DNA of 34,211 bases from a virus. A model generated the notes under the pieces. The model searched no databases. It worked only from the letters and a program-made list of their open reading frames with translations, and had not been told where the DNA came from. The number at the start of each line of letters is the position of its first letter. Within the stretch, counting starts at the first letter, position 1. Made by a program: the position numbers and the translations under genes. The stretch is taken from positions 1-34,211 of IMG/VR virus record IMGVR_UViG_3300042880_001002; one strand, given 5' to 3'. Shown piece by piece: positions 26,743 to 34,211 of this stretch.

Positions 26743-26759
26743 GCCTTCTGGCCGCCTAG
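26739..26759. terminator. Short hairpin between convergent operons
   Basis: CTAGGC (26739-26744) and GCCTAG (26754-26759) form a 6-bp stem with a 9-nt loop, and both TAG stop codons (the phage gene on + and the nuclease gene on -) lie in the stem. Only 13 nt separate the two genes. The T-run is missing, so termination strength is uncertain. Confidence 0.35.
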
Positions 26760-27715
26760 ATTGCTCCGCCCGTCAGGTCCTCATCCTCAATAGGGATAGG
26801 GGAGGCGTTTTGTCCTTCCTCCCACTCCGCATAGGTTCGACCATCAGGCAGGCGCCAGGATACACGCCCATTGGCGCTGGCCCCGGTCACCGCCGCCGCG
26901 GCCGATGAAACCGACGAAAAGACGTAGTCCGAGGTGAACACCAAGGCATCTTGCTGCTCCAGCAGAATGCCGCTGGCTACCAGATCCGCACGCAGCGCTA
27001 CCGTGCCCTTGGGGATGGTTGGGGTGGTCTTCAGCCTGGCCCTGGACCCTTTCTTGACGACGATTTCGCCGCTGGACGTCACCAACAGCTGCCCAGCGAA
27101 GCCTTGGCCCCTGAACTCGAAAAGGACGCTTTCCGCCCATGAAGGTGCTGGGCTGGTGCTCTTGGGCAGGCTGGAAATGTCCCCCGAGACGACCTTGAAC
27201 AGGTCGCAGCCCAGCGCCCCGACCAGGGTCTTGGTCTGATCGATGAATTCTTCCATGGCCGCCCGGTCAGGTAGCGGAAGCTTGCCTTCCTCGCCGGCCT
27301 TCTGGGTGTTCTGCAACTGCCAGCGAGGGTTCAGGCCGGCGTCTGCAATAAGGCGGGCCTCCACGTAACGGGCGTGCGACTTGGTAAGGTTCTCGTCCTT
27401 GCTGACCATAGCAATGGTCTCGACCCAGAAGGGCTTGCCGCCTTTCCCCTTGTCGTTGCCGGCATGGTACTGGAGCCGGTCGGCCACGCATTCGGACTCG
27501 CCGATATAGGCCAGAAGTCGGTCCGGCTGGGTCTCGTCAAAGCCGAGTAGCATGTAGACGCCCGGCCGCGCCAACTCGGGAAAGGTGCCGCGGACCTGCT
27601 TCATCTGCAGCTTGCGGAAGGCGATAGCCTGGATCGTCGACATCGAAATCTGGGCAATCCGGATGCCGTCCGGGTCGCCGTCGAGCAGGAAGATGTTGAT
27701 CGAGCGAGGGCGCAT
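26756..27715 (-). CDS. GIY-YIG nuclease with DUF4357-like C-terminus (last gene of defence operon)
   Basis: A 319-aa predicted endonuclease. The N-terminal MRPRSINIFLLDGDPDGIRI is typical of GIY-YIG proteins near restriction-like operons. The catalytic domain has GVYML (52-56), AYIGES (69-74), Arg R80 and Glu E119 in YVEARLIADAG, i.e. all expected catalytic positions. Residues 280-300 (NGRVSWRLPDGRTYAEWEE) look like DUF4357. ATG 27715 is chosen for its GGAG site; another ATG at 27736 overlaps the preceding stop as ATGA but lacks a site. It lies 17 nt after the T5orf172-type gene. It is a likely effector of the operon; DNA cleavage is inference from the motif. Confidence 0.85.
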   Translation of the reverse strand: MRPRSINIFLLDGDPDGIRIAQISMSTIQAIAFRKLQMKQVRGTFPELARPGVYMLLGFDETQPDRLLAYIGESECVADRLQYHAGNDKGKGGKPFWVETIAMVSKDENLTKSHARYVEARLIADAGLNPRWQLQNTQKAGEEGKLPLPDRAAMEEFIDQTKTLVGALGCDLFKVVSGDISSLPKSTSPAPSWAESVLFEFRGQGFAGQLLVTSSGEIVVKKGSRARLKTTPTIPKGTVALRADLVASGILLEQQDALVFTSDYVFSSVSSAAAAVTGASANGRVSWRLPDGRTYAEWEEGQNASPIPIEDEDLTGGAI

Positions 27716-27732
27716 GCGGCTATCTCCGCCGA

Positions 27733-28932
27733 TCATTGGTCGGCGCGCACGAGGCACGCGCTCTGCGGGTCATAGATGAAGCCCGTCAGGCTTTGGTCGC
27801 GGATTTTTTCCACCACCTGGTCAACGATGTGGAGTGGCACGAGGAACCATTCGCGCGGTTGCACGGGATTGCCGAAGCGGTCCTCAATCGTGAGGTCGAG
27901 CCTGGCGTTGGCAAAGACGCGATGAAGGAGCTTTTCGAGCCGAGTTCGGTTGATGTTGAAAAGCTTGTAGGTCGCGACGATTTCTACGCCAGCCAGCAGA
28001 TATGTAGCGTCCTTAGTTGCATTGGCGATCCGCGCTTCTACCGTGCCGCCTGTGACGCCGATCTTGTGAATGAGGTCGCGATGCGCAGTGATATCCGGGT
28101 GGTCTGACTTGCTTCGCAGCACATAGATCGTACCGCTTTCAAGGTCGTCGTCAGCGGCGTTGTCGCCAAAGAGCGGCCCTGCAGAAGGCTCGGTAACCCG
28201 CCGGCCAGCCTCATCCTTGTAGAGCGCGCGCTGAAGAGACCGCAACAGCAGGTCGCTCTCGGTGCCGTTGGAATAGATGACCCTAAGCCGCGCGTCGGTC
28301 TCACCGTTTGGCGCTTTGATGGTCTCCCCGACTTCAGCCACATAGGCTGTCTGGCCGCCCAGAATAAAAAACTGACCGGACTGTATGTCCGCTTTCAGGA
28401 AGCCCGAATCCTTTACGAAGGGCCGTGTCGTTCGGACTCCACTTTCGAGGTCGATCTGAACCTGCTGGAATAGCGCCTTGAACTTCTCAAAATCCAGGCA
28501 CCGGTCCCGGCTCGCGATCTCTTCGGCCTCCCGCTTCTCAACGCTAGTGCGGACATGGCGCAGATTGGTGATGTCCGATGAGCCCGCGGCACCTTCCAGC
28601 TCAGCGAGCAGCTCATCTTCGTCCATCGTGTCCGAGGGAGCTGGGGACGCGATAGCGGCGCCACTCAACAATCCCTGATGATCGAGCGGCACGAGGATGC
28701 CTCGGCAATCATCGAGAACGCGCAGACGATCAAGGCGGACCGCATAGAGCCGCTCAAAGATATCGCCGTCTACGCCATGTAGGGGCGCACGCCCAGTTTT
28801 CTCGACGAACCGCTGAATTTCCTCGAAGCCCGCGATAATGCGTTCCTCGCGGGCCGAGCGGCCGCCTTTCTTTTCGGGTTGCGCGAAATCGTCGAGTTCC
28901 GAGCGCAGTTCATCAAGGTCGAGATCAGTCAT
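27733..28932 (-). CDS. GIY-YIG nuclease, T5orf172 type, with long N-terminal region
   Basis: A 399-aa protein whose C-terminal part (268-375) is a T5orf172-like GIY-YIG domain: TIYVLRS (268-274), KIGVTGG (290-296), R301 and E333 in RLEKLLHRVF. The N-terminal 150 residues are charged and helical (DLDLDELRSELDDFAQPEKK), and the middle (185-245) is a small beta domain (GQFFILGGQTAYVAEVGETI). ATG 28932 is preferred because a longer frame to 29052 would lie inside the helicase gene; the overlap with the helicase stop is 8 nt. The middle region may contact the helicase. Cleavage activity is inference. Confidence 0.8.
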   Translation of the reverse strand: MTDLDLDELRSELDDFAQPEKKGGRSAREERIIAGFEEIQRFVEKTGRAPLHGVDGDIFERLYAVRLDRLRVLDDCRGILVPLDHQGLLSGAAIASPAPSDTMDEDELLAELEGAAGSSDITNLRHVRTSVEKREAEEIASRDRCLDFEKFKALFQQVQIDLESGVRTTRPFVKDSGFLKADIQSGQFFILGGQTAYVAEVGETIKAPNGETDARLRVIYSNGTESDLLLRSLQRALYKDEAGRRVTEPSAGPLFGDNAADDDLESGTIYVLRSKSDHPDITAHRDLIHKIGVTGGTVEARIANATKDATYLLAGVEIVATYKLFNINRTRLEKLLHRVFANARLDLTIEDRFGNPVQPREWFLVPLHIVDQVVEKIRDQSLTGFIYDPQSACLVRADQ

Positions 28933-30997
28933 AGCGGCCCTCATCCTTGAAGCGGACGAATGCGGCGGCGCCTTCGGCCATGCGCTTCTCCCAGGCGTCG
29001 GCCGAACTGATCGACGGGAGGCGACCACGCTCCTTCTTGAAGCGCACGGCACGCACGGCCAGCTCCTTTGCCTCCTCTGGCGTCAAGCTGGTCCGCTTGG
29101 CAGCGATCGCCGCAGCGACCTGCTTCAGACTTTCTTCGCTCATGGTCTTGGCGAGTATGGAATAGGCTTCGCCAAACGGATTGACCCGGTCGATCAGGTC
29201 GATGTCCAGATCACGAACGTCCATCGCGAACTTGCGCACGCCGTCAACAAAGGCGGTGTTTGCGCTTTCCTCGCCGAGCGAACTGCCTGCGGCGACTTCC
29301 TTGGCCTTCTGGGTGAGGTTTAGCGCCGCCACGGCGTGCTGCCGGACCGCTTCCTGATCCTCGTCATCAAGGTTTGGATATTTGTCCTTTATGATCTTGC
29401 CCATTCGCACCTGGGTCAGCTCTTCGGCCAGGGTTTCGCCGCCGGCATGCTCCCCATCAAACAGGCCACGCGCGATCGTCGTCTTGTCCTGTACGAAGGC
29501 AGCAATCACCTCGTTCAGATCCTCCTGACAGATGCGCGTTGCTTCCTCGCTCTTGGGCTCGGATAGCCCCTTGATCTCAATCTGGAACTTGCCGGACTCT
29601 TCATTGAAGCCGACGTTGCACTTGTTCGGATCGTATCCGCCCTCGCCATAGTCAAAGCCCGGCGTTGGCACGTTCTGTGGGTTCTTTGGCTTAAACTCGA
29701 AACGGGGCGCCAGCACCTGCTCCATCAACAGACTGGCCGCGATCGCCTTCAGCGTGTCGTTGACGGCTTCGGTCACGATGTCGTCGGCGGCGGCCGGTTC
29801 GGCGATCAGGTTTGAGAAGCGCGCTCGGGTCTTGCCCGGCGCATCGCGGGTCGCCCGGCCGATGATCTGCACGATCTCTGTAAGGCTGGAGCGATATCCG
29901 ACCGTCAGGGCATGCTCGCACCAGATCCAATCGAATCCCTCCTTGGCCATGCCCAGCGCGATGATGATGTCCACGTGATCACGATTGTGCTTCTGCGCTG
30001 GATCTTTCAGGGCCGCTGAAACTCGGTCCCGCGTGGCAGAATCGTCATTGACCAGGTCTGCGATACGCAGAGTGCGGCCATCTCGAGCTAGGACGAGCTG
30101 AAATCCCGTGGCGGGGTCTGTGCCTTGCCAGGCCCCCAGCTCCTCAATGATGTGCTCCACCTCCTTGATCTTGTCCTTCGTGCTCTCGCGCGAGTTGACG
30201 TTGGGGATGTGGATGATCGTTTTCTCGGCCGGGTTCAGCACCTTCAGAATGTCGTCGGCATACGAGTCCGAGTAGAAGAAATACCCGATGTCGAGATGCT
30301 TCAGATACTGATAGCCGTTGAGCTGCTCGTAATAGGTATAGGTGACGCTCTCGAACTTTCCTTCGTCTTGAGGGGCCAGTACCGCCTCGGCATCGCCGCG
30401 GAAATACGACCCGGTCATCGCAACGATATGCACCCGGTCGCGGGTGATGAAATCGCCCAGATGCAGACCAAGCTTGTTGTCGGGGTTGGCCGAGACATGG
30501 TGGAACTCGTCCACCGCAATCAGCCGATCGTCGAACGCCTCGACTCCGAACTTGTCGACCGCGAAACGGAACGTCGCGTGGGTGCAGACCAGGACCTTAT
30601 CGTCGCTCTTTAGAAACGCGCCGAGGGAATTGACCTTGCCGCCGTTGTCGTTGCCGGGCGCGTCGCACAGGTTCCACTTCGGCTCGACGTGCCAGTCAGC
30701 CCAGAAGCCATGATTGCTCAGCGGCTCATCATGGAAGCTGGAGCCGATGGATTTCTCAGGCACGACGATGATGGCCTGCATGACCCCCTGGTTGGCCAGC
30801 TTGTCGAGCGCGATGAACATCAGTGCGCGGCTCTTGCCCGAGGCGGGCGGCGACTTGATCAGCAGATATTGCTCGCCGCGCTTCTCGAAGGCACGCTCCT
30901 GCATTGGCCGCATGCCGAATTCGTTGGCCCTGGTTGAGCTGCCATTCGCTGCATAGGAAACCGAAACTGAGGGTACGGATTTGATGGAATTCGTCAT
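28925..30997 (-). CDS. DEAD/DEAH-family SF2 helicase (defence operon motor)
   Basis: A 690-aa helicase/translocase resembling type III Res or type I HsdR motors but without a visible nuclease domain. Visible motifs: Walker A PASGKS (51-56), DEFH (163-166), motif III MTGS (194-197) and motif VI QIIGRATR (377-384). The C-terminal 290 residues (after 400) form a separate, mostly helical domain. It overlaps the methylase stop by 4 nt (ATGA) and the T5orf172-type gene by 8 nt. It would move DNA or displace strands after recognition; partner binding is inference. Confidence 0.9.
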   Translation of the reverse strand: MTNSIKSVPSVSVSYAANGSSTRANEFGMRPMQERAFEKRGEQYLLIKSPPASGKSRALMFIALDKLANQGVMQAIIVVPEKSIGSSFHDEPLSNHGFWADWHVEPKWNLCDAPGNDNGGKVNSLGAFLKSDDKVLVCTHATFRFAVDKFGVEAFDDRLIAVDEFHHVSANPDNKLGLHLGDFITRDRVHIVAMTGSYFRGDAEAVLAPQDEGKFESVTYTYYEQLNGYQYLKHLDIGYFFYSDSYADDILKVLNPAEKTIIHIPNVNSRESTKDKIKEVEHIIEELGAWQGTDPATGFQLVLARDGRTLRIADLVNDDSATRDRVSAALKDPAQKHNRDHVDIIIALGMAKEGFDWIWCEHALTVGYRSSLTEIVQIIGRATRDAPGKTRARFSNLIAEPAAADDIVTEAVNDTLKAIAASLLMEQVLAPRFEFKPKNPQNVPTPGFDYGEGGYDPNKCNVGFNEESGKFQIEIKGLSEPKSEEATRICQEDLNEVIAAFVQDKTTIARGLFDGEHAGGETLAEELTQVRMGKIIKDKYPNLDDEDQEAVRQHAVAALNLTQKAKEVAAGSSLGEESANTAFVDGVRKFAMDVRDLDIDLIDRVNPFGEAYSILAKTMSEESLKQVAAAIAAKRTSLTPEEAKELAVRAVRFKKERGRLPSISSADAWEKRMAEGAAAFVRFKDEGRYD

Positions 30998-33771
30998 GCG
31001 CGTACCCCCGACTTTTTCTTGGGCGTCCCCTGGCTGGAGGACATTTTGGTATACAGCTCGAACAATTTCTCCAGCCGCTCGGTGTCGTTCTTGAAGCGTC
31101 GGCCGATATAGATGCGCTCCAAAACCTCGTCGTTACGCTCATGCGCCGCGCGAAGGTCTTCAGGCATGGCGTCGGGGTCGTAGAGGTCGGCGATCGTCGC
31201 TGGGAAATGTGCCTCGCGTGCGAGCAAGATGTCTTCGGCACAACGGGTCAGATCGGCCTTGTTCTTTTCGGTCAGCTTCGGGATGGGGAAGGTGTTCCAC
31301 CCGAGTGTGTTGGAATAGGAGAAATCGGTGCGCATTCGTGCGCAGACTGTGCCGATCCAAACCCAATGTAGCCGTGATGCGATGAGCGCCATATTCCACA
31401 GAGGAGCATCATGTATCGCAAAACATTTGAAGCTAACAACCGCAGGTGCAGAAATGAGATCGCAAGGCAGGTATTGACGGTTCTCTGAGCTGGTCTGTGG
31501 CACAGCGATAAAATACGCGGAAGACTCTACCTGATCGCGGAACCGATGGGGCGAACTAACCAACACGGTTGCTGTGGTGTCTTTAGGCTTACTTTGGCGA
31601 TCTGTCCGAACAGTATCGAACCGACGTTTCAGTTCCGGTATTTCACTTGCTCGCATTGCATCGGAGTCACGCACCCAGATACACATGCGTGGGGCGGCAT
31701 TGATGACCTCGGTCGACCCATAATATGGCCTGACAAACTCAGCAGCCCGATTATCCGCTGTCATCAATTCTCGTGCGTCTTGCCGTGAGAAAATCAAAGG
31801 CGCCGCATAATAGGGATGGTTGCCGAAGTTCATCTTTGCGACATCAGATATAGGCTGTGAAGCTGCGTGAATAAATATGTCTTGCGAAGTAGCAAGGTAA
31901 CCGTTGATGTTATCAACTTGACGTGCAGTCACCCCGTCTGCTGTTTCTTCATAAAGTGTTGCGGTAGCTGTCGTCGCTGGCACAATGCCCACGATCACCA
32001 CGGTGATACCGGCATTGTGTGCCGCAAGGTTAGCCCACTTAAAGGAAGTATGAGCGAATCCGATCTTTTGGCCCAAAGCAATAACGTAAGGCCATAAGAC
32101 AGGCACTTGCCCGCCTTGGCAAATCGTGTTGGTCGCAACGAATGCGGCGGCACCCTTTGTTTGATTAATAAATTGAGCGGACTTTATGATCCATCCTGCA
32201 ACATAGTCTAGATTTCCCCACCGCTTCATCAATGGAGAAAAAACGAATTCAAGATCCTCTTTCTGCAATGCAGACTGTTTATTGTAGCCCGAATACGGCG
32301 GATTCCCACAAATGTATGTCTCGCCACCTTCATTCTCGAAGTCGATCTGTGCCTGATTAAGCGGCGTATGAAACAGGTCGTCAGCGTGGTGCTTCACACC
32401 TGTGCCCGTCGGCGGACAGATGCTAAGCCAATCGAGCCGCAGGGCGTTGCCGCAGGTGATCCAGTTCTGAGCATCGAGCGGCAGGAAGTCGCGAAGCGCT
32501 TCTTTCTGGCCGCGATAAAGCACATCGCACTGGTACTCGGCGATGATGAGCGCCAGGCGTGCGATCTCGGCCGGAAAGTCGCGCAGTTCGATCCCGCGAA
32601 AATTCGTCAGCGGAAGCTCGGAGCGATGGTCGGCCTCGTCTCTGCGGCGATTGATCTCCGCTTCGATGGCCCGCATTTCCTTATAGGCGATGACCAGGAA
32701 ATTGCCGGAACCACAGGCCGGATCAAAAACCCGAATCTTCGACATACGTTTGCGCAGGTTGAGTAGCATGCGCCCGTTGTCGTCCGCCTCCTGCAGCTGG
32801 GTTCGCAGGTCGTCGAGGAACAGCGGATTCAGCACTTTCAGGATGTTCGGCACGCTGGTGTAGTGCATGCCCAGCGCGCCACGCTCGTCATCATCGGCCA
32901 CGGCCTGGATCATCGACCCGAAAATGTCCGGGTTGATCTTCTTCCAGTCCAGGCTGCCAATGTGCAGCAGGTAAGATCGCGCGATACGGCTGAACCGCGG
33001 GACATCTGTACTTCCAGAAAACAGCCCGCCGTTCACATAGGGGAAGCCGTCGGCCCAGCGCGCAATGCCGGCGTTCACTCGATCCGGAAGCTTTGTGTTC
33101 ATGGCGCGGAACAGCTCGCCGATCACCTCATGGGTATTGGACGAGTCCTTCGCGCTCATGGTCTCGATGGCAGGCGTGAAGGTGACGCTGCCACTGAAAA
33201 TCTCGGTGTCCTCCGCGAAGAAGCAGAAGATCAGTCGCGCCATGAAGTGGTTCATGTCGTGCCGGCGCTGCGCGGTGCCCCATTCAGGATTGTCCTTCAG
33301 CAGTTCGACATAGAGCCGATTCAGACGGCTGGTCGCCCGAATGTCGAACGAGCTCTCACGGAGCTGCTTGACCGTGGTGATGCCGGCCAGAGCTAGGAAG
33401 AAGCCGAAGTGGTTCGGGAAATCGGCGTAGGTACAGGAGACTGGCGGATCATCTGACGTGATGTCTTCCGCCTCGAACAGCTCTCCATCGGTGGCCAACA
33501 CAAAGCGTGCTTTCGCCCGCGCCGTCGCGGGGCTGGCCTTCAGGGCCGCGAGCGTCCGTGTGACCTCACCTGGTTTGCAGGTGGCGATGTGGATGTTGTT
33601 CGTCTGAAGAACGCCGCCCAGGTCCGACTTGTTGGACTCGCCCTTGCGCAGGCGCTTAAGGGTGGTCTCCTTGTTTCCGAATGCCTCCAGGAACGAATAG
33701 GGGAACTCTTCAGCGTCGAAGGGGCGCTCCGCCAGCGTAGAGATGGCTTCCTCGATCTCAACAGCGTTCAT
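30994..33771 (-). CDS. MmeI/YeeA-like DNA adenine methyltransferase with target-recognition region
   Basis: A 925-aa class I SAM-dependent methyltransferase. Motif I FDPACGSGNF is at 349-358 and motif IV NPPY at 490-493 (gamma order, N6-adenine). The helical region before it (RHDMNHFMARLIFCFFAEDT) is the spacer seen in MmeI-like enzymes; the region after about 620 acts as the presumed target-recognition domain (FVRPYYGSTEVINAAPRMCI), and WNTFPIPKLTEKNK is a typical end phrase. MmeI has an N-terminal PD-ExK nuclease, but here I see no clear catalytic ExK (nearest is ATDGELFEAED), so cleavage is probably left to the GIY-YIG partners. Residues about 480-800 are encoded by clearly AT-richer DNA. 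Start overlaps the regulator stop (ATGA). Confidence 0.9.
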   Translation of the reverse strand: MNAVEIEEAISTLAERPFDAEEFPYSFLEAFGNKETTLKRLRKGESNKSDLGGVLQTNNIHIATCKPGEVTRTLAALKASPATARAKARFVLATDGELFEAEDITSDDPPVSCTYADFPNHFGFFLALAGITTVKQLRESSFDIRATSRLNRLYVELLKDNPEWGTAQRRHDMNHFMARLIFCFFAEDTEIFSGSVTFTPAIETMSAKDSSNTHEVIGELFRAMNTKLPDRVNAGIARWADGFPYVNGGLFSGSTDVPRFSRIARSYLLHIGSLDWKKINPDIFGSMIQAVADDDERGALGMHYTSVPNILKVLNPLFLDDLRTQLQEADDNGRMLLNLRKRMSKIRVFDPACGSGNFLVIAYKEMRAIEAEINRRRDEADHRSELPLTNFRGIELRDFPAEIARLALIIAEYQCDVLYRGQKEALRDFLPLDAQNWITCGNALRLDWLSICPPTGTGVKHHADDLFHTPLNQAQIDFENEGGETYICGNPPYSGYNKQSALQKEDLEFVFSPLMKRWGNLDYVAGWIIKSAQFINQTKGAAAFVATNTICQGGQVPVLWPYVIALGQKIGFAHTSFKWANLAAHNAGITVVIVGIVPATTATATLYEETADGVTARQVDNINGYLATSQDIFIHAASQPISDVAKMNFGNHPYYAAPLIFSRQDARELMTADNRAAEFVRPYYGSTEVINAAPRMCIWVRDSDAMRASEIPELKRRFDTVRTDRQSKPKDTTATVLVSSPHRFRDQVESSAYFIAVPQTSSENRQYLPCDLISAPAVVSFKCFAIHDAPLWNMALIASRLHWVWIGTVCARMRTDFSYSNTLGWNTFPIPKLTEKNKADLTRCAEDILLAREAHFPATIADLYDPDAMPEDLRAAHERNDEVLERIYIGRRFKNDTERLEKLFELYTKMSSSQGTPKKKSGVRA

Positions 33772-33971
33772 TTGGCCCTCCCGCTGCGCGCATCTTTGGC
33801 CAGGTCGCCTTCATTGCCGTCGTCGAGGGCCTGCAATCGTTCGAACTCCTCGACCGCCATAACGACCAGCACAGGCCGATCGTACTTGGTGATCGCAACC
33901 GGTGCCGACCGCGCCATGTCGACCATCTCGCCGAACTTGTTCTTTGCCTCTGCAGCCGTGAAGGTGCGCAT
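33768..33971 (-). CDS. Phd/YefM-type antitoxin-like regulator (first gene of defence operon)
   Basis: A 67-aa protein with the Phd/YefM fold signature: MRTFTAAEAKNKFGEMVDMA, then APVAITKYDRPVLVVMAVEE and FERL. These proteins bind operator DNA and neutralise a toxin. No toxin gene (Doc, RelE or similar) is adjacent; the next gene, overlapping by ATGA, is the methyltransferase. ATG 33971 with a GGAG site is preferred over a TTG at 33986. An inverted repeat just upstream is a fitting operator. It may work as an operon controller, or be a leftover half of a toxin-antitoxin pair. Confidence 0.85.
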   Translation of the reverse strand: MRTFTAAEAKNKFGEMVDMARSAPVAITKYDRPVLVVMAVEEFERLQALDDGNEGDLAKDARSGRAK

Positions 33972-33976
33972 GCGAA

Positions 33977-33994
33977 TCTCCGCCAAGGCGGAGA
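33977..33994 (-). promoter_or_regulatory. Inverted repeat operator upstream of Phd-like gene
   Basis: TCTCCGCC (33977-33984) and GGCGGAGA (33987-33994) are perfect 8-bp inverse complements around AA, ending 6 nt before the Phd-like ATG and including its ribosome-binding site. A second palindrome GCTAA-G-TTAGC lies at 34001-34011. Phd-family proteins commonly autoregulate through such palindromes, so binding here is expected but not shown. The promoter itself must lie upstream, but I see no convincing -35/-10 pair. Confidence 0.55.
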
Positions 33995-34211
33995 GATTTA
34001 GCTAAGTTAGCCATAAAGACAATGGTTGTGAGTTTGCGAGATACACGTGCGGCCAGCGAGAGTTCGCCTTCAGGCTCCCTTCCACCGCCACTGGCATCTG
34101 AAAAGATTAAACTTTTCCGCTTAAGAGGGATCCATTCGGTCCTGTCAGAGCAAATGCACCGGCTAGCGGAACGCGGCGGATCGGGTAGGGCGGGGCGATG
34201 CCCAGACTCAG
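33995..34211. other. Right-edge region with no assigned gene
   Basis: About 217 bp from the operator to the window end. On + an ATG at 34022 opens a frame that stays open to the edge (begins MVVSLRDTRAASESSPSGSL, includes LFRLRGIHSVLSEQMHRLAE), but it lacks a clear ribosome-binding site and is not recognisable. It could be a divergent gene or chance in GC-rich DNA. The region should also contain the promoter of the defence operon. No tRNA or attachment site is recognisable. Confidence 0.3.

Follow-up and report, generated by a model that had tools for sequence, protein, structure and literature searches.

Our analysis describes a small gene of the Phd/YefM antitoxin family that stands, with no toxin gene adjoining it, at the head of a DNA-methylation defence operon in a viral genome. 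We conclude that its product is most probably a toxin-less autorepressor, which would limit both its own gene and the coupled defence operon through a dyad at positions 34000-34012 of the window, the whole 34,211-base stretch of DNA studied here. This dyad is shared with dozens of relatives, and reading from it the small gene is most likely a self-limiting switch for the operon; to judge from their neighbouring genes and upstream sequences, Phd relatives of this type appear to play such a role for many anti-phage systems.

The phd-like gene and its operon

The window is an IMG/VR virus record. Its first 27 kb form the phage part, with primase, terminase, major head, tape-measure and tail genes, and a further phage gene (4217-5605) has ParB-like and DNA methyltransferase parts. 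The methylase/helicase/GIY-YIG operon is convergent to the last phage gene; relatives of that gene were sought as a guide to the usual occupant of the site in related phages, and none was confirmed.

The first gene of the operon (33768-33971, minus strand) encodes 67 amino acids matching PF02604 (E 8.2e-12) and TIGR01552 (E 7.6e-9). With 45.2 bits against a gathering score of 29.8 for PF02604, the protein is a member of the Phd/YefM family; the same family is matched by all nine rows of alignment A1. PF02604 is the sole Pfam family that the window protein matches, the XRE-type helix-turn-helix of the C-proteins not being found, and the match covers only profile positions 1-51 of 74, which is the N-terminal part. 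A phmmer search against PDB chains returned Rv2865, YefM and ribosomal protein L4 as the only matches up to an E value of 1, and a single-sequence AlphaFold model (mean pLDDT 68.8, pTM 0.27) was of too low quality to bear out the fold and was not used.

The ATGA at 33768-33771 is common to the stop codon (TGA) of the phd-like gene and the start of the next gene, which encodes not a cognate toxin but a 925-residue MmeI/DnmA-like N6-adenine DNA methyltransferase (30994-33771, minus strand). Upstream, no Pfam match to a toxin or any other family was seen in the visible 240 bp, where the record ends. These observations bear out what the earlier note had read from the letters, namely a Phd/YefM gene that is first in its operon, overlaps the methylase start and has no toxin beside it. 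The methylase carries all five MmeI domains (PADLOC type IIG, E 6e-274), its alignment to MmeI (5HR4) begins past the N-terminal nuclease region of that enzyme, and no D-x9-ExK motif was seen by eye. It is followed, also on the minus strand, by a 690-residue YeeB-like SF2 (DEAD/ResIII) helicase (28925-30997), a YeeC-like T5orf172/GIY-YIG nuclease (27733-28932; PF10544, E 3e-14; start inferred from the annotation of relatives, here L147) and another GIY-YIG protein, this one carrying DUF4357 (PADLOC PDC-S14; 26756-27736; start presumed from its ATGA overlap). By gene content and order, with an MmeI-like methylase, an SF2 helicase and a T5orf172 gene in succession, the operon is thus of the DnmA-YeeB-YeeC type with one extra GIY-YIG gene. 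Near 103 loci fetched by means of the window-type helicase, tblastn found no relative of either the Phd protein or the fourth gene.

Neighbours of the Phd relatives and first genes of homologous operons

Relatives of the Phd protein were sampled from alphaproteobacterial and pseudomonadotal genomes, and their downstream genes were read and in part profiled. The nearest relative, L150, is 84% identical over 50 residues; its contig stops 66 bp past the Phd gene, and no DnmA match was found in its genome. The relatives were ranked by a profile whose source was the window protein and the sequences closest to it, most of them defence-linked, and the ranking is therefore biased; L221-L228 and L239 turned up after this profile was made. 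Among relatives whose downstream sequence could be read, the top 15 by score all lack a toxin. The closest plasmid relatives with annotation precede type I hsdM-hsdS (L143, L144) or BREX-3 brxF (L145), again with no toxin. Type I restriction-modification genes lie downstream of L143, L144, L155, L156, L221-L225 and L105, a type I methyltransferase or restriction enzyme being the very next gene for L155, L156 and L223 and, by close resemblance, for L221, L222, L224 and L225. BrxA of a BREX system adjoins L226, C5 methylase genes adjoin L152 and L228, and the gene next to L227 is restriction-helicase-like by eye, without a profile match; for L150 and L151 the contig ends too soon for downstream genes to be read. 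After the top 15 come L154 and L153, with RelE-like toxins, and then L239 (HKD and Snf2). Relatives further down the ranking mostly have RelE/ParE, PIN or MazF-like genes immediately 3', and next to none of those below L239 was a defence gene recognised. In a tree, the defence-linked rows fall into two groups, one of the window with L150-L152 (98/97) and one of fifteen other rows (98/98), and the neighbour label changes 3 times against 15.3 in shuffles, on few columns and a poorly resolved topology.

A scan of viral contigs with the same alignment yielded 53 loci, 41 of them non-redundant with enough upstream sequence and 37 with informative downstream sequence. The next gene encodes at least 200 amino acids in 37 of these 37, and a 4-bp stop/start overlap joins it to the Phd gene in 13. 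Of these next genes, twelve were compared with profiles. Ten code for methylases or for subunits of restriction systems (type I, II, III or Dcm); an eleventh, a candidate defence nuclease, is the HNH protein of a candidate system in PADLOC, and the twelfth product is a VWA protein without a tie to defence. At L270:5228-5902 a Phd gene of the RM type, preceded by an exact dyad, stands before a VWA-domain gene without a restriction tie, and the regulator family may serve other systems too.

The earlier note had suggested looking for the same first gene in homologous operons. We surveyed 96 DnmA-type operons with sufficient upstream sequence, some of them near-copies of each other, using profiles made from representatives, on the same strand and up to 1 kb upstream of the methylase, with families named by Pfam. 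Phd occurs in this slot in 0 of 96, and its pairing with DnmA is a single case, that of the window. The earlier note had said that a regular lack of the Phd-like gene in such operons would speak against its idea, and for this operon family that lack is what the survey shows. The slot holds HigA-like proteins in 13 operons, ribbon-helix-helix proteins in 9 (a naming that rests on a Pfam match below the curated cut-off), HTH_17 in 7, resolvases in 5, PIN toxins in 5, and RelB, HepT and an unassigned family in one each; in 54 nothing was recognised. One HigA-like gene lies 743 bp from the methylase and the other 12 near it, so that small DNA-binding proteins, counted as those 12 with the ribbon-helix-helix, HTH_17 and RelB proteins, occupy the slot in 29 of 96. 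It therefore seems to be the role that recurs and not the Phd gene itself, and a regulator is not obligatory, because 54 of the 96 have no recognised first gene.

An ATGA overlap with the methylase start, as in the window, is frequent among the slot genes, and no toxin-like reading frame was seen by eye upstream of those of HigA, ribbon-helix-helix and RelB type. A TTGTCGAGTGTCGATTATCACT-like sequence is common to the HigA-type genes (10/10 loci printed); it is conserved at a distance of some 40-60 bp before the HigA start in loci with no recognisable HigB (L006, L026, L027, L030, L032, L034, L040, L057, L058 and L147). The ribbon-helix-helix genes share a GTGTA-TCC...GG-TACAC-like sequence (8/8 loci), a dyad just 5' of the start codon in L013, L015, L045, L049, L054, L062, L064 and L081. 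In L029, L077, L087 and L108 it is a PIN (VapC/FitB-like) toxin gene that shares ATGA with the methylase start; these loci perhaps represent a stage preceding toxin loss.

The candidate operator and competing explanations

Upstream of the phd-like gene lies the dyad GGCTA-ACT-TAGCT (34000-34012, minus-strand reading), which ends 28 bp 5' of the start codon and matches RGCYA-N3-TRGCY exactly. This motif, conserved upstream of the relatives 16-34 bp 5' of their start codons, was first read off upstream regions and then tested on loci outside that reading, where 8 of 10 carry it without a mismatch (shuffle mean 0.011); among the viral loci it is exact in 28 of 41 (shuffle mean 0.05, maximum 1). 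Nine of 39 toxin-linked relatives also have it in exact form, and the window shares the dyad with toxin-linked L158, L159 and L163, as in a Phd/YefM module with its operator-like dyad; its presence in some toxin-linked relatives fits the expectation for an inherited operator. The only other exact match in the window lies inside the tape-measure gene (16706). A scan for sigma-70 promoters upstream of the phd-like gene gave no match. Around the dyads of L158, L239 and L231 there are extra operator-like half-sites at 9-bp spacing, an arrangement that suggests cooperative arrays. The dyad, which the earlier note had not listed, is a better-supported operator candidate than the repeat to which that note had pointed.

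The protein itself is conserved unevenly. Mean identity among 53 defence-linked members is 71% up to residue 48 and 10% past it, and the defence-linked members are shorter than the toxin-linked ones (57-83 against 80-98 amino acids, p 9e-9). The C-terminal part of Phd binds the toxin. No such segment is evident in the window protein, whose family match stops at position 51 of 74, or in its group, where the tail is short and unconserved and the residues L, I, V, F, W, Y and M account for about 10% of it in total, against about 29% in the toxin group.

With toxin and tail gone, and Phd missing from all 96 homologous operons, the gene might be read as the decaying remnant of a toxin-antitoxin module without present function; a mean identity of 71% in the N-terminal part of the 53 defence-linked members and a dyad at a near-fixed place would be unexpected under decay, and we regard this reading as improbable. 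No more credible is a solitary antitoxin that travels with the operon and neutralises host toxins encoded elsewhere. Solitary antitoxins of such a role are known, phage T4 Dmd among them (reviewed in PMC3874152), but here the toxin-binding part is short, lacks conservation and has few hydrophobic residues, while the N-terminal part and the dyad are conserved.

Over the ribosome-binding site lies the feature that the earlier note had taken up, a perfect 8-bp inverted repeat, TCTCCGCC-AA-GGCGGAGA (33977-33994). The repeat is present as described, and its occurrence is not unusual: perfect 8-bp repeats with loops of up to 6 number 6 in the window and 2-17 in ten shuffled windows, and among 55 upstream regions of the group only 3, the window's included, have a counterpart of it (0.5 expected by chance). 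On these counts the palindrome, which is not conserved, was rejected as a conserved operator, and it is probably not the operator. As RNA it can fold into a hairpin in which the Shine-Dalgarno sequence is buried (z -2.05), which would allow control to be mainly translational; with such a repeat in 3 of 55 upstream regions and no enrichment in the window, we give this little credence, and as a group-wide feature the hairpin proved weak and inconsistent. The last and least probable alternative, proposed in the earlier note, is that the nucleases are the toxin partner, bound directly by the Phd-like protein in an addiction module; adjacency and translational coupling are all that speaks for it, the same Phd type stands before type I, II, III, Dcm and BREX genes, unrelated effectors that share no nuclease, the tail is short and not conserved, and we find no support for it.

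The other proposal of that note, a controller role, fared better: toxin-less relatives in first position before restriction and BREX operons and the shared dyad give it strong comparative support, although the palindrome is probably not where such a controller binds. We propose that a Phd dimer would bind the dyad, just upstream of the ribosome-binding site, and that the bound dimer would curb transcription, from a promoter whose position we infer, of the phd-like gene and of the genes for methylase, helicase and GIY-YIG proteins that are translationally coupled to it. A newly entered cell holds no repressor, so that the operon would there begin at its full rate and be throttled later; were the repressor lost during phage attack, through a presumed inducing signal, expression could rise again.

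Comparison with known regulators of defence operons

The antitoxins Phd of P1 and YefM of E. coli act at palindromic operators to repress the promoters of their own genes. The window protein shares the PF02604 family with them and differs in having no toxin, a shortened and unconserved tail, and a defence operon downstream. The first-gene arrangement is known from RptR, the RMS-proximal transcriptional regulator of E. coli, a small autorepressor that opens a type I restriction island and binds short palindromes (TAGCTA) in its own promoter (PMC12255303; PDB 9R2Z). The likeness lies in the first-gene position and in TTAGCTAA, which is present also in the upstream region of the window; RptR, however, is all-helical, has 79 amino acids and was placed by its authors in no known regulator class. 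Though apparently unrelated to the window protein, it shows by analogy that a first-gene repressor arrangement works. More speculatively, the first slot of defence operons may hold an exchangeable repressor-operator cassette, often a toxin-less protein of an antitoxin family (Phd, HigA, RelB, ribbon-helix-helix), whose inherited lability would serve as an infection sensor, host shut-off or proteolysis removing the repressor and freeing the restriction genes; we hold this broader idea to be possible, though rather unlikely.

C-proteins, which are thought to set the timing of expression when a restriction-modification system enters a new host (PMC3874152), are likewise small regulators encoded within the operon, but they are helix-turn-helix proteins that activate and repress the nuclease gene, whereas the window gene precedes a whole operon with the methylase first and repression alone is proposed. 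The BrxR/CapW repressors that accompany many defence systems (PMC9122601) are larger WYL-domain proteins, thought to sense ligands, and belong to another family. With the DnmA-YeeB-YeeC systems of Bacillus subtilis and Vibrio crassostreae (PMC9973331) the window operon shares, in the same order, an MmeI-like methylase (in those systems one without the nuclease motif), an SF2 helicase and a T5orf172 protein; it adds the Phd gene in front and the second GIY-YIG/DUF4357 gene behind. No defence was observed for the B. subtilis system, and deletions in V. crassostreae led to greater sensitivity to some phages (PMC9973331).

Beyond the C-proteins, RptR and the WYL regulators, little is settled about the ways in which restriction-modification systems spare a new host and become induced. 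A lineage of Phd proteins whose predicted operator is clear offers a directly testable regulator of defence operons. A literature search that fell short of preprints and most subscription journals found no paper on Phd as a restriction regulator. A Phd annotation beside restriction-modification genes is not to be taken as a toxin-antitoxin module. Makarova and colleagues proposed in 2009 that solo antitoxin homologues are possible regulators of diverse operons (PMC2701414), and the Phd lineage found here before type I, II, III, Dcm and BREX genes supports that proposal.
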